Shown here one piece after another: positions 8,301-39,238 of a stretch of DNA of 64,000 bases. The stretch is from Bradyrhizobium hereditatis. GTDB lineage: Bacteria > Pseudomonadota > Alphaproteobacteria > Rhizobiales > Xanthobacteraceae. Made by a program: the position numbers and the translations under genes. Location: assembly GCF_020329435.1 (NCBI RefSeq), contig NZ_JAGKJK010000001.1, forward strand, positions 682,001 through 746,000. The letters are read 5' to 3'. The first letter of the stretch is position 1. Every line of letters starts with the position of its first letter. The notes below the pieces were generated by a model. The model saw only the letters and a program-made list of their open reading frames with translations. It was not told the origin of the DNA and did not search any database.

Positions 8301-8465
8301 GCTGAGGCGCGTTCCTCAGAAATAGCTCAGCATAATCTTGCAATGTCCGCTTTTTGAACCCGAAGCGGAATGGGCTGTTGTTTGTTCTGCGCTGAGCACC
8401 TCACGGCAAACTGAGGCCCGCCAAAGGGCCTTTGTGTTAGTCTTGTCACTGGAGGTTCTGCGTGT

Positions 8466-10010
8466 GTGCGGTCCAGAAGCATGCCAAAGGAACCAAAAAA
8501 GCTTCGCCTCTTTACCGAGCATGGTTGGCTGATTGCGCTGGCCGTCGCGGTTGGCTTGGTGCTCGGCTTGGCCGGACCCACCTCTGCGCAGTTCTTTGAT
8601 TTCGGCGGATATCAGCAGCGGCCGCCACCGCACCGCGGTGGCGGCTGGTTTGGTAACGAACAACGCGGCGGCGGCTGGCTTGGTAACGACACGTTTGGGC
8701 CATACCAGCAGCAGTATGCGCCGCCGCCTCGTTGGAATGGCCGGCAAGCGCAACCGGTAGTGCGCGAGGATTTTTCCAAGGCGCCGCCGCCCGAGAAGCG
8801 CAACACGGAACCGGAGCGCCACATTCTTGTGCTCGGTGACGCCATGGCAGACTGGCTCGCCTATGGGCTTGAGAATGTCTATGACGATCAGCCCGAGATC
8901 GGTGTGATCCGCAAACACAAGACAGTCTCCGGCCTGATCAAGTATCAGCCGAAGGGCGATCCAGCCGATTGGGCCGCCGCCGCCAAAGGCATTCTGGCTA
9001 CCGAAAAAGCGGACGCTATTGTCGTCATGCTCGGGCTTGATGACCGCGCTGCAATCCGCGAGCCGGCAGCCGAAAAATCCGACAATAAGACAGGCGACAA
9101 GAAGGACGCCGACAAGAAAGACGCCAAGGCCAAACCGGATAGCAAGCCGTCGGACGCAAAACCGGCGGCGAAGCCGGACGGCGCAACCAAGGGGACGGAT
9201 GCCGAATTGTCGCCAGACGACAGTGATGCGCCGTCGGTCACTGGACCGGAGAAGAGCGCGCGTTCGCCGAACGGCCTCCACGAGTTTCGCGAGAAACGCT
9301 GGGTCGAACTCTACATGCAAAAGATCGAGGAGACGATCGGCGTACTCAAGTCCAAGGGTGTGCCAGTGCTGTGGGTGGGTCTGCCAGCGGTACGTGGCTC
9401 CAAGTCGACAGCCGACACGGCGTTTCTGAATACGCTCTATCGGGATGCGGCCGGCAAGACCGGCATCACCTTTCTCGATGTCTGGGACGGATTTGTCGAT
9501 GAAACCGGGCGCTTTTTGCAGCAAGGCCCCGATTTCGAAGGGCAAATCCGCCGGCTGCGCTCCTCCGATGGCGTGTACTTCACCAAGGCCGGAGCGCTTA
9601 AGCTCGCGCATTATGCCGAGCGCGAAATCAACCGGTTGTTGGCTGCGCGTTCCGCGCCGATTGTGCTGCCCACCGAACCGGCAACGCCCGACGCCAGTGC
9701 GCGGCCAGATCAGCCGGCGCCGCGTCCGCTGGCCGGGCCGATCGTTCCCTTGACGGCCCCCTCTGTCGGCACGGATCAATTGCAGGGCGGTCCGGGGTCG
9801 CGGCCGGTAACGATGGATGCGCAAGCAGCTCGGTTCTTGATCACAGGTGAGCCCTTGTCGGCGCCAGCCGGTCGAGCCGACGATTTTGCCTGGCCGCGGC
9901 GAGAAATCGGACGCGAACGGGCCCAGGGCGAGACGCCAATGGCATCACGATTGCTCGACGCCAATGCGCGGGCGCCGGCGGCATCGCCAAAGCCAAAAAA
10001 GCAACGCTAA
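8466..10010 (+). CDS. DUF459 SGNH-hydrolase-like envelope protein
   Basis: The 514-residue protein has an N-terminal hydrophobic anchor or signal (about 20-42). A Gly/Pro/Gln-rich linker follows, then an SGNH-like domain (about 115-400) of the DUF459 type, and a proline-rich basic tail. A Lys/Asp/Ala-rich low-complexity insert sits near 195-265. Block I reads VLGDAMADW, so alanine replaces the usual nucleophile serine. The late block reads DGVYFTKAG, where active enzymes have histidine. Catalysis is therefore doubtful, and a binding or structural role in the periplasm is possible. The GTG start follows GGAGG by ten bases; ATG 8481 is too far from it. The 3' end overlaps the convergent CapA-like gene by 4 bp. 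Confidence 0.75.
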   Translation: MRSRSMPKEPKKLRLFTEHGWLIALAVAVGLVLGLAGPTSAQFFDFGGYQQRPPPHRGGGWFGNEQRGGGWLGNDTFGPYQQQYAPPPRWNGRQAQPVVREDFSKAPPPEKRNTEPERHILVLGDAMADWLAYGLENVYDDQPEIGVIRKHKTVSGLIKYQPKGDPADWAAAAKGILATEKADAIVVMLGLDDRAAIREPAAEKSDNKTGDKKDADKKDAKAKPDSKPSDAKPAAKPDGATKGTDAELSPDDSDAPSVTGPEKSARSPNGLHEFREKRWVELYMQKIEETIGVLKSKGVPVLWVGLPAVRGSKSTADTAFLNTLYRDAAGKTGITFLDVWDGFVDETGRFLQQGPDFEGQIRRLRSSDGVYFTKAGALKLAHYAEREINRLLAARSAPIVLPTEPATPDASARPDQPAPRPLAGPIVPLTAPSVGTDQLQGGPGSRPVTMDAQAARFLITGEPLSAPAGRADDFAWPRREIGRERAQGETPMASRLLDANARAPAASPKPKKQR

Positions 10011-11143
10011 AGTGAGACCACGACGAGTTGCCGTTCGGCGTCAAAGATGACCCTAGTTCCGAACTGCTGACATTCTCGATCGAGGCTTTGCTGGATCCAT
10101 TCCATGTCTCGCCACGATGGAATGGACAGACGAAAGTTCTTGATCTGCAGGGGCACCAGTTTGAGCGCATGGAGGCATCCGCTGGTCGGATCCAGGTCGG
10201 CGAAATACATCAGCACGAGATCGTCACGGTAACGCTCGTAACCGGGGATCCCTTCATAGTCGTTCAGAAAATCACCGCAGCCATAGAGAATGAGACGATC
10301 TCGATAGATTTCGATCGCTCTGGGATGATGCGAAGAATGCCCGTGAACGATCGACACCCCTGCCTTGTCGATGAGGGTCCGGGCCAGAACTTTCTGCTCA
10401 TGGGGAATGTGATATCCCCAATTGGATCCCCAATGGATCGAAACGACGACGAGATCGCCCGGCCTCCTCTGCGACATGACCTGGTGGGCGATCTCCGACG
10501 CACTCGCCTCGGAGAGGTCGGGCAGCAGGTTGACGCCTGGAGCGTCTGCTGTCGCAGCCCATTCGAGCGGGACGCCGCTCGATGTTGATCCGAACGAAAA
10601 GATCAGGAGACGCGCTCTGGCAAGGTTAAGCACCGCGGGTGCGAGCGCTTCGCGATCGTTGCGTCCTGCACCCGTCGCTTTGACGTTGAGTTTCTGCAGG
10701 GTCGTCAGCGTCTCAAGCAGGCCGGCGCGGCCCCAGTCGAGCACATGGTTGTTGGACAATACACAGCAGTCGATCTTGGCGGCCACGAGACATTCGGCAT
10801 TCTCGGGGCTCATGCGATAGTTGATGCCTTTGTTTGCGCGGTCGCCGCTGCGGGTGACAGCCGTTTCGAGATTGATGATCCGCGCGTCAGGCTGCATGCG
10901 CTCCAATTGATCCAATGCGGCGCCCCAAACGTAGGATGCCCCGTTACGTCGCGGAATGGAGCCGTTTGCCTGTTCGGCGAGCAGCACGTAGCCTTCCGCC
11001 GATCGCATGTAATCTTCGTAAATCTCGGGGCTGCAGGGGTGCGCCAGCACCTGGTCGATACCACGGCCGCACATCACATCTCCGCAGAGAAAGAGCCGCA
11101 CTGATTCTCTGGGCGCAGCGGGCAATCGTCTTTCCTCGGGCAT
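10007..11143 (-). CDS. CapA-family (poly-gamma-glutamate synthesis type) metallophosphatase-like protein
   Basis: The 378-residue protein shows the CapA pattern: a first strand FLCGDVMCGRG, an INLETAVT block, SNNHVLDWG, an HWG segment and a late VHGHSSHHP/YGCGDFLND region. CapA proteins carry a calcineurin-like fold and take part in capsule or gamma-polyglutamate export or turnover in Gram-positives. In Proteobacteria their role is largely unknown. No signal peptide is visible. The ATG at 11143 has GGAG eight bases upstream and is preferred to the GTG at 11149. It follows the metallo-beta-lactamase gene by 22 bp, so the two are probably co-transcribed. No capsule genes are nearby. Confidence 0.85.
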   Translation of the reverse strand: MPEERRLPAAPRESVRLFLCGDVMCGRGIDQVLAHPCSPEIYEDYMRSAEGYVLLAEQANGSIPRRNGASYVWGAALDQLERMQPDARIINLETAVTRSGDRANKGINYRMSPENAECLVAAKIDCCVLSNNHVLDWGRAGLLETLTTLQKLNVKATGAGRNDREALAPAVLNLARARLLIFSFGSTSSGVPLEWAATADAPGVNLLPDLSEASASEIAHQVMSQRRPGDLVVVSIHWGSNWGYHIPHEQKVLARTLIDKAGVSIVHGHSSHHPRAIEIYRDRLILYGCGDFLNDYEGIPGYERYRDDLVLMYFADLDPTSGCLHALKLVPLQIKNFRLSIPSWRDMEWIQQSLDRECQQFGTRVIFDAERQLVVVSL

Positions 11144-11165
11144 GAACACTGCTCCGGAATCCGCG

Positions 11166-12173
11166 TCAGGCGGAAGATCCTCGGAATGCCGCCATCACCT
11201 CGGCCAGCATCCGCTCCTGCTCTCCCGAATAGCGCGGAGAAAAGTGAAACGGCTCGACGCGGTGCACATTTGCCTCCCGCGCAATTTCTCCCGCAGCTGT
11301 TGTTGTAAGGTGGCCTCGCCCCCTCGCCAATTCGGCGTCCGCCGCGGCAAATGCGGCCTCAATGAAGAGGATGTCCGCATTCTGAACGAGCGCCACGATG
11401 GCGGCCCGATTGGACGGCGTGTCGGCTACATCGGTAACATAAGCGATTTTCTGACCGGCGGCGACCGTCAAGAGATCGCGCAGGCTGCCAAGTGGCACAA
11501 GACGACCATCTGATGTCGCCGGTCCGTCGATATGGACCAGATGATCGTCCGCGCGACGCTCGACAACGGCCTGCTTGAGCGAGCGCAACCACGGGCCAAC
11601 GGGAAGTCCACGCTCCGACAGTCGGTTCTTCCAGATGTTCACATGCGCCGCTTCCTGCAGGGCAAAGGCAAGGCAGGGCGTTCCGTGTTCAAGGATCGCG
11701 GCCGAGACGCGATGGGTCGGCTCGTCGCAGAGTACGCCGGCAGAGGTTTTCTGTGAGGCTAATGGCTCCGCGGCAAAGGCCTTCCTCAGGCGGAACCGTG
11801 TCGTAGGCATGGAATTCGGCGTTTCGAATTCACTCACAACGAAAACAAGATCGCAAGGATAGGCTTCGACCAGATTCCATCGATAGGCCTGAAGCTTGTG
11901 AAACACGCGCTCCGCGAAGCCGGGCGGACCGTAGAGCTGCACCGTTTTCTCGCGCCCGACCAGCAAACGGAGCAGATGGTCGAAGCCGACGAAATGGTCG
12001 ATATGCGCATGCGAGACGAAGATCTGGTCGACACGTCGTATCTTCCGCGCTGACAGAGAAGCGATTTCTCCGACGTCGAACAGCAGACTGTGCTTTTCGA
12101 ACATCGTCTCCACATAGATCGTCGGGTCGCCATAGCGACCATTGACGAGGCTCGGATGGAAGATCGGTCGCAT
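11166..12173 (-). CDS. RNase Z-like metallo-beta-lactamase-fold hydrolase
   Basis: The 335-residue protein has the zinc motif HAHIDH (H55, H57, D59, H60), a downstream EHGTPCLAF histidine, a YVTDVADT aspartate and an HFSPRYSG histidine near the C-terminus. This set and order fit the RNase Z/ElaC branch of the metallo-beta-lactamase fold. It is longer than many tRNase Z proteins and differs in its middle part. It could therefore be tRNA 3'-end nuclease or a phosphodiesterase with another substrate. It is the first gene of a pair with the CapA-like protein. There is no signal peptide, so it acts in the cytoplasm. Confidence 0.82.
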   Translation of the reverse strand: MRPIFHPSLVNGRYGDPTIYVETMFEKHSLLFDVGEIASLSARKIRRVDQIFVSHAHIDHFVGFDHLLRLLVGREKTVQLYGPPGFAERVFHKLQAYRWNLVEAYPCDLVFVVSEFETPNSMPTTRFRLRKAFAAEPLASQKTSAGVLCDEPTHRVSAAILEHGTPCLAFALQEAAHVNIWKNRLSERGLPVGPWLRSLKQAVVERRADDHLVHIDGPATSDGRLVPLGSLRDLLTVAAGQKIAYVTDVADTPSNRAAIVALVQNADILFIEAAFAAADAELARGRGHLTTTAAGEIAREANVHRVEPFHFSPRYSGEQERMLAEVMAAFRGSSA

Positions 12174-12505
12174 CGCAAGCTACTCTGCCGCAACGGGTTT
12201 TCCACGCATCTCAGGCGCGTCATACTAGCTTCATCGCACAAGACCCTTTGTATACCGCGGCTGATTTTGGCCAATGTCCGATGAACTTCCCGGATGTAAT
12301 CAGAGTTATTGGATTCTGCACCGGGCAAGGTCGAGCCAAACTGCCGCAATCGGATCGCGCCCGCGCCTAGCACCGTCAAGGCCACTCGGAGCGAGTGTGG
12401 TGAACATAGTTCCGCGCCGCACCGCGACCAGAGTTGAGATCGGCGAGCCGGATCTGGAAGAACTCGTCAAGCCCGAGCCGATGTCTCAGCCTGATGGAGA
12501 GAGCC
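12174..12505. other. Intergenic gap between divergent genes, nothing recognised
   Basis: These 332 bases separate the RNase Z-like gene (minus) from the YbhB-like gene (plus). Both promoters should be here, but I found no clear -35/-10 pair, palindrome or small gene. Confidence 0.5.
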
Positions 12506-12955
12506 ATGAAGCTCGTTTCAAACGCCTTCGCCGACGGGGCAGCAATTCCTCGGCGTTTCACCTGCGATGGAGAAAACCTGTCGCCGCCTTTGCAATGGTC
12601 CGGCGCGCCAGCCGAAACGCAAAGTTTTGTTCTGCTCTGCGATGATCCCGATGCGCCCGGTGGAACGTGGCATCATTGGGCGGTTTACGATATTCCCCCA
12701 GTGCTAACGGAGCTCACGGACGGGGCCGCGCAAAACACGAACTTGAAGCAGGCAGCCAACGATTTTCGGAAGGTCGGCTATGGCGGCCCGTGTCCACCAC
12801 ATGGCCATGGACGTCATCACTATCACTTCCGGTTGCTCGCCCTCTCGACGGACCATCTTCCGGCAACGGCCGGAGCGTCCTGTCGTGATATTGAGCGAGA
12901 GGCGCGCAAGCACGCGATCACAGAAGCGATCCTCGTTGGCTGGTATGAGAGATAG
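12506..12955 (+). CDS. YbhB/YbcL (PEBP, Raf-kinase-inhibitor-like) family protein
   Basis: The 149-residue protein has the phosphatidylethanolamine-binding fold signatures: FTCDGENLSPPLQW, LLCDDPDAP, WHHWAVYDIP and GPCPPHGHGRHHYHF. This is close to the full ligand-pocket set of bacterial YbhB proteins, and the length is normal. The bacterial function is uncertain; small-anion or lipid-headgroup binding is assumed for the fold. The ATG at 12506 is preceded by GGAGAGAG. It has no signal peptide, so it is cytoplasmic. It is convergent with gyrA, with a palindromic repeat between. Confidence 0.93.
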   Translation: MKLVSNAFADGAAIPRRFTCDGENLSPPLQWSGAPAETQSFVLLCDDPDAPGGTWHHWAVYDIPPVLTELTDGAAQNTNLKQAANDFRKVGYGGPCPPHGHGRHHYHFRLLALSTDHLPATAGASCRDIEREARKHAITEAILVGWYER

Positions 12956-12961
12956 CGTCGT

Positions 12962-13037
12962 AGTCCGGATGAGCGAAGCGAGATCCGGGGACAGTCTTTC
13001 CGCGGATGAAGTTTCCCGGATGTCGCTCCGCTCATCA
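12962..13037. repeat. Imperfect palindromic repeat between convergent genes
   Basis: The arm GATGAGCGAAGCGAGATCCG (12968 onward) pairs with CGGATGTCGCTCCGCTCATC near the right end, matching at about 20 of 22 positions when extended. It fills the gap between the YbhB-like gene and gyrA and could act as a two-way terminator. Confidence 0.7.
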
Positions 13038-13050
13038 CTCCAGGCCGGCC

Positions 13051-15777
<2,727 letters not shown>

Positions 15778-15980
15778 AGGGGAAATCCAGTCAGTTCTCA
15801 GTCAGGAATCATATAGCGCATCGTGGGTCCGATCACCACCCCGTAACGATCGGGATGAGCTGTTTTTCCGCTCGTTTTTTCATGGACTTACGGCATTGCA
15901 AGAAAGTCTTCCAAGCGTTCTTGAAACGGCCGGTTCCGGGCCGGAAAATGCCGGCAGGAAGGTGTCTTCCTACCCCAGTT

Positions 15981-16379
15981 TCAAGGGCCGAAAACCACCG
16001 CATGCATGATCCGTCCCGGCAGGAAAGTGAACGCGCCGGCGATGATCAGCGCGCCGAAGAAGATCGATGTCATCGCCTTCTTGTGGCCGCTGACATTGTG
16101 CCGCCGCGCATACAGGACCGCGAGCACCAGCATGACCGGCACGAAGATCGACAGGAGATGGATCGGGCTGAATGGCCCGACCATGCGGATCTCGTGGATC
16201 CAGAGCGAGCTGATTGCCACCGCCGCCATCAGCACCACCCAGATCCAGCCGATGGTCCGGTGCGGCAGCGTCCCCTTCGGGGCCACGAACTGCACGACGC
16301 CGAGCGCGAAGGCCGCCATTGCGGCGAAGGCGTGTAGCGGGATCGTTCCGGGGGCCTCCAGCAGCGGTGCGAGGCTCAT
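15981..16379 (-). CDS. DUF2306-type four-helix membrane protein
   Basis: The 132-residue protein has four predicted membrane helices with short loops. Histidines occur at the membrane boundary (LHAF, PHRTIGW, WIHEIR, HLLS, GHKKAM), which is the pattern of the DUF2306 predicted membrane proteins. Conserved histidines could bind haem or metal, but no function is established. It lies 200 bp downstream of the gyrA start region and 240 bp from ssb, with no sign of an operon. The AT-rich stretch upstream (16425-16460) probably holds its promoter. Confidence 0.78.
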   Translation of the reverse strand: MSLAPLLEAPGTIPLHAFAAMAAFALGVVQFVAPKGTLPHRTIGWIWVVLMAAVAISSLWIHEIRMVGPFSPIHLLSIFVPVMLVLAVLYARRHNVSGHKKAMTSIFFGALIIAGAFTFLPGRIMHAVVFGP

Positions 16380-36702: not shown

Positions 36703-38136
36703 ATGATTTCCGCTAACTCCCAAACTGATACTGTCCATGTAATCGGCGGCGGCCTCGCCGGCTCGGAAGCCGCCTGGCAGGTTGCCAATGCGGGTATTCG
36801 CGTCGTCCTGCACGAGATGCGACCGCTACGGATGACCGAAGCGCATCGCACCGAGGGCTTGGCCGAACTCGTCTGCTCCAACTCGTTCCGCTCCGACGAT
36901 GCTGCCAACAACGCCGTAGGCCTGCTGCATGCCGAGATGCGCCGGCTGGGCTCGCTGATCATGCGTTCTGCCGACGCCAACCAAGTCCCCGCCGGCGGGG
37001 CGCTGGCGGTCGACCGCGACGGGTTTTCCGCTGATGTCACCAAGGCGCTCAGCGATCATCCCCTGATCGAGATCGACCGCACCGAGATCGCCGGCCTGCC
37101 GCCAGCCGAATGGGGCAATGTGATCGTCGCGACAGGTCCCCTCACCTCGGCGCCGCTGGCCGAGGCGATCCGCGAATTAACGGACGAGAACGCGCTCGCC
37201 TTCTTCGATGCGATCGCGCCGATCGTTTACAAGGATTCCATCGACATGTCGGTGGCGTGGTTTCAGTCGCGCTACGACAAGGTAGGACCCGGCGGCACCG
37301 GCGCCGACTACATCAACTGCCCGATGACGAAGGAGCAGTACGACGCCTTCGTCGCGGCGCTGCTCGCCGGTGACAAGGTCAACTTCAAGGAGTGGGAGAC
37401 CAATACGCCGTATTTCGATGGCTGCCTGCCCGTCGAGGTGATGGCCGAGCGCGGCCACGAGACATTGCGACACGGACCGATGAAGCCGGTCGGGTTGACC
37501 AATCCGCACAATCCGACGGTCAAGCCCTACGCGATCGTGCAGCTACGCCAGGACAACAAGCTCGGCACGCTCTACAACATGGTCGGCTTCCAGACCAAGC
37601 TGAACTACGGCGCGCAACAGCGCGTCTTCCGTACCATCCCCGGGCTTGAGAACGCCGAATTCGCCCGGCTCGGAGGCCTGCATCGCAACACCTTCCTGAA
37701 CTCGCCAAAGCTGCTGGACAGCCAGTTACGCTTGCGTGCGCAGCCGCGGCTGCGCTTTGCCGGCCAGATGACCGGCTGCGAGGGTTATGTGGAATCCGCC
37801 AGCATCGGCCTGATCGCCGGCCTCTATGCCGCAGCGAACGCACGGGCGCAGTCGCTTGAGCCGCCGCCTGCGACAACGGCGTTGGGATCGCTGCTCGGCC
37901 ATATCACCGGAGGCCACATCGAGACCATCGAGGCCGGAACGCGCTCGTTCCAGCCGATGAATATCAATTTCGGCCTGTTTCCGCCGCTTGCCAGTGTGCC
38001 GACCAAAAAGGCTGATGGCACGCGGCTGCGCGGCAACGAGAAGTCCGTCGCCAAGAAGCAGGCGCTCAGCGCTCGCGCGCTTGTCGATCTCGATCGCTGG
38101 ATCGCCGATCACCTGCGCGTAGCGGCGGCGGCGTAA
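36703..38136 (+). CDS. trmFO: Folate-dependent tRNA (uracil-54) methyltransferase
   Basis: This 477-residue flavoenzyme uses methylene-tetrahydrofolate to make ribothymidine 54 in tRNA. The FAD motif is GGGLAGSEA (about 15-23). Further signatures are [21 protein letters not shown] and [19 protein letters not shown], which holds a conserved cysteine. Length and motifs are standard for the family. No clear ribosome site precedes the ATG. A kinase-like gene begins 4 bp after its stop, which suggests co-translation. Confidence 0.97.
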
Positions 38137-38140
38137 TCCC

Positions 38141-39238
38141 ATGGGCCTTCCGAAAGACGACGCCGCCACGCTCTCGGCGAGATGGATCGAAGGCGTGCTG
38201 TTGAAGCGTGACGTGTTCTCGACTGTCGAGCGCGGCCGCTTCCGCGATGAATCCGGCGAGGTCGACGCCGTGCTGCGCCGCCTCGATCAGGTGCCGATCT
38301 GGTCCTATCCGCTCGCCCGACACCTGTTCGCCCGCGAACGCCGCGCGCTGGCATTGGCCCGCGAGCTCAACGTCGGACCGAAATTGCTATGGGCCGGACG
38401 GCGGGCGCTGGTGCGCGGCTTCGTTGATGGCGTCGCGCTGCATCTGGCAAAACCCCATGGCGACATCGCCTATTTCCGTTCTGCCAAGCTCGCGCTGCGC
38501 AAGCTGCATCGCGCCGGCATCTGCCACAACGATCTCGCCAAGGAGCAGAACTGGCTGGTGGGACGCGACGGACGCGCCTATCTGACCGACTTCCAACTGG
38601 CCGCCTGCTTTTCGAGCCGCAGCCGGCTATTCCGGATCGCGGCTTACGAGGATCTGCGGCATATGCTGAAGCACAAGCGCAGCTATGCGCCGCAGGCTTT
38701 GACGCCAATGGAACGCAAGATCCTGGCCCGCAAATCCGTTGTCGCCAGCCTCTGGCTCAAGACCGGCAAAAAGGTCTATCAGGCCATCACCCGCGGCCTG
38801 TTCAACTTCACGGACCGCGAAGGCGGCGGCCGGCGACTGGTCAACGATGCGCCCGTCCTGGCCGAACTGATCAGGAAAAATCCTGACGTACGCGACACCT
38901 CCATTGTCGCATTCGCCGACCGCCGTACCGGCGTCGGGCTGTACGCCTTCGTGGAGGCCGACGATGTCGCGCTGGAAAAGCAACTGCGCAGCGAACTCGC
39001 GTCGGCCAAGGGCGTCAGGCCGCCCGAGCATATCCAGGTGGTGCACGCCCTGCCGCGCGACGCTGCCGGCAAACCGCGCACGGAGATCCTGCAGCTTGTG
39101 GCAATGAACCAAGTCGATCTGATCGAGCCGCTGATCACGAGCGATCTCGACCGCGCGTTTCTGAAGGACATTTTAGAGAGCCGCAAGAATTTGCGGGATC
39201 GGTTCAATTTCGAGAGCAGCGAGTTGAATTCGCGGTAG
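38141..39238 (+). CDS. Kinase-like protein fused to a domain resembling the C-terminal part of acyl-CoA synthetases
   Basis: The 365-residue protein has a kinase-like N-terminal half. HNDLAKEQN (H129, N130, D131, with the Asn further on) resembles a catalytic loop and LTDFQLA (D150) a metal-binding loop, but no clear glycine loop is visible. The RIO/WaaP-type minimal kinases are the nearest by pattern. Its last third (about 230-320) reads like the mobile C-terminal subdomain of ANL enzymes, including PRDAAGKPRTEI with the lysine at the A10 position. No adenylation core is present. It starts 4 bp after trmFO. Substrate and partner are unknown; the second domain is my reading by eye. Confidence 0.65.
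   Translation: MGLPKDDAATLSARWIEGVLLKRDVFSTVERGRFRDESGEVDAVLRRLDQVPIWSYPLARHLFARERRALALARELNVGPKLLWAGRRALVRGFVDGVALHLAKPHGDIAYFRSAKLALRKLHRAGICHNDLAKEQNWLVGRDGRAYLTDFQLAACFSSRSRLFRIAAYEDLRHMLKHKRSYAPQALTPMERKILARKSVVASLWLKTGKKVYQAITRGLFNFTDREGGGRRLVNDAPVLAELIRKNPDVRDTSIVAFADRRTGVGLYAFVEADDVALEKQLRSELASAKGVRPPEHIQVVHALPRDAAGKPRTEILQLVAMNQVDLIEPLITSDLDRAFLKDILESRKNLRDRFNFESSELNSR

Follow-up and report, generated by a model that had tools for sequence, protein, structure and literature searches.

The window, a stretch of 64,000 nucleotides from Bradyrhizobium hereditatis, encodes a protein in which a kinase-like half is followed by a domain that resembles the mobile C-terminal domain, or lid, of AMP-forming acetyl-CoA synthetases. 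The gene occupies positions 38141-39238 of the plus strand, on which all window features named below lie; it starts with ATG and specifies 365 amino acids. The reading that we prefer, with somewhat better than even confidence, is that of an atypical phosphotransferase that has captured a non-adenylating acetyl-CoA synthetase lid as a regulatory or docking module. Such a two-domain protein would have originated in probably one fusion. Its N-terminal half would be a phosphotransferase of atypical kinase fold in which the catalytic Asp, the Asn that binds metal and the Asp of the DFx motif are preserved, with Arg in place of the β3 Lys and without a glycine loop, and its C-terminal half would be the mobile C-domain of the synthetase with the adenylation domain missing. 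The lid, which would lie beside the C-lobe of the kinase, probably has a regulatory or docking role, its ligand being CoA, an acyl carrier or another protein.

Family membership and distribution

By its profile score, the protein is a full-length member of a catalogued, uncharacterised family, NF006620/PRK09188, named 'serine/threonine protein kinase'; residues 1-359 were covered by the model, and the whole protein scored 602.2 bits against a curated cut-off of 490. The family itself is therefore not new, but its name omits the C-domain that the members carry. The identifiers of NF006620 and of NF008910, the related kinase-only model described below, were named in no paper found, and a search for kinase-ANL lid fusions returned no relevant paper, as judged by title and start of abstract. 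The papers found did not describe kinase input through an ANL lid, and none was found that links trmFO, the upstream neighbor of the gene, to a kinase.

Among 250 stretches of named genomes that encode relatives, the best 80 were 83-93% identical, and 76 of these 80 were titled Bradyrhizobium. One record titled Frankia sp. RB7 (L132, JAUEPE010000002.1) contained a Bradyrhizobium-type locus, inclusive of the trmFO adjacency, and is probably a mislabelled or contaminated assembly. Since ordinary synthetase lids also match NF006620, a threshold of E ≤ 0.001 gave matches to this model in all but three of the 297 genomes sampled from the window's order and in 9 of 14 control genomes, none of the controls being over the cut-off; presence of the fusion in this order was counted only at E ≤ 1e-120. 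At that level, it was found in 18 of the 297 genomes, comprising all 14 genomes sampled from the window's family, two of nine from family f16 and two of six from family f19.

A sample of the class yielded matches in four of 387 genomes at E ≤ 1e-20, which were the window's genome, one genome of the same genus, genome G707 with a fused protein (L191), and genome G919 with a kinase-only one (L192). A scan of the phylum with the kinase-only model gave matches at E ≤ 1e-15 in 26 of 397 genomes; fused proteins were found in the window's family (14) and in family f56 (2), kinase-only proteins in f88 (4) and f109 (3), and three matches were weak. Unfused kinases are, in other words, present in other lineages (f88, f109 and G919). 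The order around f56 had the kinase profile in 11 of 121 genomes, and the polypeptide continued into the lid in all 11 proteins. The corresponding figure was 7 of 274 genomes for the class around genome G422, four of them strong and three reaching only 2.9e-22 to 5.0e-26, and one of four for the order around G707, where the other three genomes (one of them 78% complete) gave no match. No plasmid-borne copy was found at E 1e-5 among 72,556 plasmid records, and a PHROGs search returned one match only, with an E-value of 0.5.

An atypical kinase homologue

The kinase half spans residues 19-230 (38195-38830). It is homologous to NF008910/PRK12274, a 219-aa model without a lid (E 2.4e-54), although the window protein obtained 184 bits against the model's 372. 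On its own, the window protein also fell below the gathering threshold of the Pfam Pkinase family (21.3 against 31.7). Eleven fused and six kinase-only relatives, 17 in all, were combined into a profile designated A2, from which L177 and L187 were omitted as near-copies and L184-L186 for their distance; when compared with solved structures, it matched StkP (2.3e-8), Rio2 (1.3e-6) and a Bud32-type protein (0.003). Judged by these profiles, the N-terminal half is a kinase homologue, as originally predicted, and an atypical one.

The HNDL-N and DFQ loops named in the original prediction are indeed present. Residues that are invariant in all 17 sequences of A2 include, in the N-terminal part, Lys22 of an LKxD motif (38204-38206), Arg46 (38276-38278), Glu66 and Arg92. 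Within HNDLAKEQNWL (residues 129-139; 38525-38557), the equivalent of the catalytic loop, they are His129-Asn130-Asp131, Ala133-Lys134 and Asn137-Trp138-Leu139; these are followed by DFQ (residues 150-152; 38588-38596) in place of DFG, and by Glu170, Asp171, Arg173, His174, Lys177 and Lys179 of an EDLRHLLKHK-type stretch. The Asp of HxD (Asp131), the metal-binding Asn (Asn137) and the Asp of DFx (Asp150) are thus present throughout. It is to be noted that Asn137 is located at D+6; in ordinary kinases, the catalytic Asn is found at D+5. The glycine loop had been reported as not obvious, and no GxGxxG was found in the window protein sequence. The β3 Lys is absent as well, since the alignment places Arg46 at the position expected for the Lys of VAIK. 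We infer that the kinase half would be catalytically active, because the catalytic residues are kept, although Arg46 argues against it.

The C-terminal boundary of this half was drawn at the conserved D-x-EG. Residues 215-230, ending in TDREGGG, were considered as the A7/A8 motifs of an ANL enzyme, a candidate that was rejected; they belong to the kinase half because kinase-only relatives end in the same D-x-EG, even though the acyl-CoA synthetase model NF006572 aligns through them, starting from residue 204 (E 2.1e-7). Because of the latter alignment, the fusion protein may contain a remnant of the A8/hinge; the solved-structure alignment of the lid profile A3 (see below) begins after the hinge, and the residues up to 230 are common to kinase-only relatives.

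Structure prediction was usable over the C-domain only. The AlphaFold model of the full-length protein, computed from an alignment that included 45 close relatives, had a mean pLDDT of 48; when the kinase half was modeled by itself and with no alignment, the result was poor and mostly helical, with a mean of 53. Neither of the results by which the original prediction would have fallen was obtained, since profiles speak for a kinase-like N-terminal half, and profile, tree and predicted fold for an ANL-like C-terminal part.

Comparison with known minimal or atypical kinases revealed both likeness and difference. WaaP/KdkA (PF06293, PRK01723) is also a minimal kinase with weak similarity, and some distant relatives of the fusion family adjoin LPS or lipid genes; however, PF06293 remained below its gathering threshold of 21.3, both in the window protein (11.2) and in the best of seven relatives (16.3), and WaaP/KdkA was not among the best solved-structure matches of A2. 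RIO2 and Bud32 share the A2 profile similarity quoted above, but the RIO family PF01163 was unmatched in the window protein and scored 20.0 against a gathering threshold of 22 in the best relative (L170), and the fusion has DFQ instead of the usual motif of these kinases. The possibility of a defence-system kinase was rejected; PADLOC matches were weak and located around the catalytic loop, the best E-values for the three proteins scanned being 2.7e-5, 6.0e-5 and 1.8e-5.

The acetyl-CoA synthetase lid

The acetyl-CoA synthetase-derived C-domain and a family-specific tail together make up residues 231-365 (38831-39235). In the window protein, PF13193 (AMP-binding_C) matched residues 243-311 (38867-39073) with an E-value of 0.0016 and a score of 19.8, which is below the gathering threshold of 24.5. 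In five other fused relatives, the scores of L191 (71.5), L172 (43.3) and L174 (33.3) were above this threshold, L170 scored 19.2, and L182 showed no match at E ≤ 0.1. Despite the sub-gathering scores of the window protein, the assignment of the two halves is well supported by the relatives.

The nature of the lid was confirmed by profile, predicted fold and phylogeny. The divergent fused lids collected numbered 20, that of the window and 19 others; a profile (A3) built from 11 of them matched the C-domain of acetyl-CoA synthetase (4u5y_D) best among solved structures, with an E-value of 8.8e-17, and the first 16 matches listed were all acetyl-CoA synthetases. The lid of L191, which is the least altered, matched 4u5y_D at 2.6e-25, PF13193 at 1.1e-19 and the AcsA model TIGR02188 at 9.8e-25. 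Across residues 231-350, the 10-residue blocks of the AlphaFold model had pLDDT values of 52-86, and a Foldseek search with this model retrieved 14 matches at E ≤ 0.001 (top E 2e-4), all of them acetyl-CoA synthetases, the matches being partial (95-120 columns, rmsd 5-7, TM-score 0.16-0.23 over the whole query). Of these 20 lids, 14 entered a tree computed over 106 columns, together with 30 of the genome's 42 other PF13193 matches. In this tree, the 14 fused lids formed one clade (UFBoot 100), which was sister to the genome's own AcsA (L005, which carries ACAS_N) with a support of 91. On this combined evidence from profile, fold and tree, the lid is derived specifically from acetyl-CoA synthetase (PDB 4u5y_D, 1pg3), in agreement with the predicted ANL-like character of the C-terminal third. 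Since the fused lids form one clade, a single fusion event fits, and the joining of kinase and lid apparently took place once; it is of old date and has been maintained by selection.

The fusion nonetheless differs from acetyl-CoA synthetase in three respects, namely the missing adenylation domain, the A10 lysine, which has mostly been lost, and the tail. The adenylation domain PF00501 gave no match in the fusion protein up to E 1, nor at its genomic place, which substantiated the prediction that the adenylation core is missing. The A10-like region, PRDAAGKPRTEI, was located where it had been predicted (residues 305-316; 39053-39088). Its Lys311 is Lys in 41 of 45 Bradyrhizobium-type sequences (the window's and 44 of the 80 loci), and is replaced by Arg in two, Gln in one and His in one; within the genus, this amounts to 91% conservation, compared with a mean column identity of 88%. 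Outside the genus, only one of 19 fused relatives (L173) has Lys, the others having Arg, Ser, Met, Ala, Glu or Thr, apart from two without the hairpin. In these two, L219 and L222, the A10 hairpin of the lid was lost (LPSAEVAELIAMN and LPRADVLELIAMN, respectively), and the hairpin therefore seems dispensable. The tail, RxNLxDR, is shared by 10 of 11 aligned fused members, L191 being the exception and F-type variants at the N position being left aside, and it was not found in the genome's own AcsA in the lid alignment. Considering that there is no adenylation domain and that the A10 lysine has been lost in most lineages, the lid is probably not adenylating, although the window protein itself retains the lysine. 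The original prediction of a mobile lid taken from an adenylating enzyme thus stands as regards homology, and probably not as regards a working adenylation lid.

The lid is under purifying selection equal to that of the kinase half, the median NG86 dN/dS being 0.11 and 0.13, respectively (33 sequences, 528 pairs). Because the constraint is the same as in the kinase half, the lid has some job. Together with the full-length family score and the relatives found, this constraint indicates that the gene is no chance finding.

The genome's own ANL enzymes were also surveyed by profile, which revealed 55 AMP-binding matches and 43 PF13193 lid matches. Lids of adenylating enzymes are normally accompanied by an adenylation domain, and here an AMP-binding match preceded 41 of the 43 lids; the two exceptions were the fusion and a match on contig C35 (130947-131123, minus strand; E 1.8e-4) in a 157-aa frame, which could be a gene remnant or a second stand-alone lid. 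Conversely, 14 of the 55 AMP-binding matches lacked a PF13193 lid at a distance of up to 700 bp, and no ACAS_N protein was among them. Eight of the 14 belong to frames that are 606-734 aa long, and another two are at contig ends; these are probably either truncated or equipped with a C-domain from a different family. Contigs C10, C12, C32 and C57 have open frames of 1700-3655 aa in which AMP-binding and lid matches recur, which suggests at least one large non-ribosomal peptide synthetase cluster.

Gene neighborhood, alternatives and possible function

Neighboring genes were called with a simple open reading frame script, by which small genes may be missed. Those quoted with a Pfam E-value were profile-checked, and the names LpxD-like, MsbA, acyl carrier protein, ketoacyl synthase, peroxiredoxin, RluA-type, thioredoxin and PAP2 (beside L191) were assigned by eye. 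The gene upstream of the fusion (36703-38136) ends 4 nt before its ATG; its product matched PF01134 (E 4.5e-99), and we take the gene to be trmFO, as did the original prediction. The close coupling to trmFO had been thought to add interest, and trmFO was indeed found near the gene in 87 of 100 loci, all of them in the window's order. In all 83 loci of the window's family, trmFO immediately precedes the fusion gene in the same orientation (extrapolated gap -60 to 30 nt), 80 of these loci belonging to one genus or very near it; in all four loci of f16 and f19, it was nearby on the same strand. Beyond the order the coupling did not hold, trmFO being absent from 13 of 13 loci of other lineages in stretches of 10.7-19 kb.

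Other lineages have other neighbors. In the f56 loci (L182, L183 and L214-L222), an aldehyde dehydrogenase gene precedes the fusion gene co-directionally in 11 of 11 cases, 54 to 1766 bp away. A pseudouridine synthase is encoded 3' of the fusion gene by the opposite strand in 8 of 11 (PF00849 in L215), and a peroxiredoxin was found nearby in 10 of 11. The L191 fusion, with its least altered lid (8781-9881, minus strand), adjoins LpxB (PF02684, 2.1e-80) and what appears to be a lipid A cluster (9956-16081), the rest of which was named by eye; this is a single case, since one of the four genomes of that order carries the kinase. In L176, the kinase-only gene and a DUF2867 gene have 4 bp in common (8357-8863 and 8860-9522, minus strand), which makes the DUF2867 protein a candidate partner of the unfused kinase form; this kinase gene is also divergent from the gene of a VTT/PAP2/LssY protein. 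Among very distant relatives, L225 lies near a heptosyltransferase and L224 adjoins a glycerol-3-phosphate acyltransferase, and three distant relatives matched the Kdo-kinase model at 3e-7 to 6e-6. No partner gene common to all the lineages examined was found, trmFO included.

Several other explanations were weighed against that of an atypical phosphotransferase with a captured lid. That the resemblance to ANL enzymes arose by chance, the C-domain being unrelated, might be argued from the sub-gathering PF13193 score of the window protein and the lack of a match in L182, but it is refuted by relatives such as L191, as well as by the A3 profile, Foldseek and the tree, and its probability is practically negligible. 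Another proposal is that the lid acts in trans, completing an acyl-CoA synthetase that has no C-domain of its own. In keeping with this, the fusion is one of the two lids without a preceding AMP-binding match, and 14 AMP-binding matches have no lid close by; however, ten of the latter are probably accounted for by frame length or contig ends, as described above, and the fused family conserves the A10 lysine poorly. The original prediction had suggested looking for synthetases that lack their own C-terminal part; the survey revealed no lid-less acetyl-CoA synthetase in the genome, whose two ACAS_N proteins each come with a lid, and complementation of a lid-less synthetase was rejected. The proposal is highly improbable. 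The acyl-switch explanation, in which a Pat-type acetyltransferase acetylates Lys311 as it does in acetyl-CoA synthetase and thereby controls the kinase, draws on the Lys in 41 of the 45 Bradyrhizobium-type sequences and on the isolated C-domain of Salmonella acetyl-CoA synthetase, which was acetylated by Streptomyces Pat without its N-domain (PMC4053389). The same paper reports that the Streptomyces C-domain was not acetylated, and a lysine-bearing lid thus need not be a substrate; moreover, Lys311 is conserved hardly above the column average, and Lys occurs in one of 19 fused relatives outside the genus. We regard this switch as improbable; it would come into question for Bradyrhizobium only.

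A more serious alternative is that the protein is a dead pseudokinase that acts as a scaffold, with the lid as a second interaction module. The Arg at the β3 Lys position and the DFQ in place of DFG, both in 17 of 17 sequences, and the lack of a glycine loop are all consistent with it, but His129, Asp131, Asn137 and Asp150 are equally invariant and form the pattern of a working active site. Furthermore, the invariant Lys22 could substitute for the β3 Lys; in WNK kinases, a different Lys replaces it. We consider a pseudokinase unlikely. Alternatively, the protein could be a RIO/Bud32-like kinase or ATPase with a role in RNA modification, its partners being TrmFO in the window's order and the pseudouridine synthase in f56; this would accord with the two gene neighborhoods, the Rio2 and Bud32-type matches of A2, and a match to the NCBIfam Bud32 model (5.7e-5). 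Nevertheless, with 80 of the 83 trmFO loci in one genus or very close to it, the adjacency is nearly one observation, the 13 loci of other lineages have no trmFO, the pseudouridine synthase of f56 is not co-directional, and the lid is left unexplained, all of which makes this connection decidedly unlikely.

For the preferred phosphotransferase, a lipid or LPS-type small molecule is weakly favored over a protein as the substrate, on account of some of the neighbors and the acyl-ACP precedent of WaaP, an LPS kinase for which acyl-ACP is required for solubility and kinase function (PMC6147952); we hold this tentatively, at clearly less than even confidence. Against a lipid substrate, the neighbors in Bradyrhizobium and f56 are not lipid genes, and, against an LPS kinase, the best solved-structure matches of A2 are protein kinases. 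The lipid A of Bradyrhizobium is largely phosphate-free, for which reason an LPS kinase is disfavored in this genus.

A further reading, to which we assign a small chance, is that the lid was captured once as the sensor of the kinase, either binding CoA, acyl-CoA or an acyl carrier, or being acetylated at Lys311 in Bradyrhizobium, such that phosphorylation would track the acetyl-CoA state. If true, Lys311 would be acetylated by the machinery that turns off acetyl-CoA synthetase. As for the family in general, a protein that is annotated just as a 'serine/threonine protein kinase' gains testable features, and the strong constraint on a lid carried by a kinase without an adenylation domain suggests that the lid is reusable as a module.
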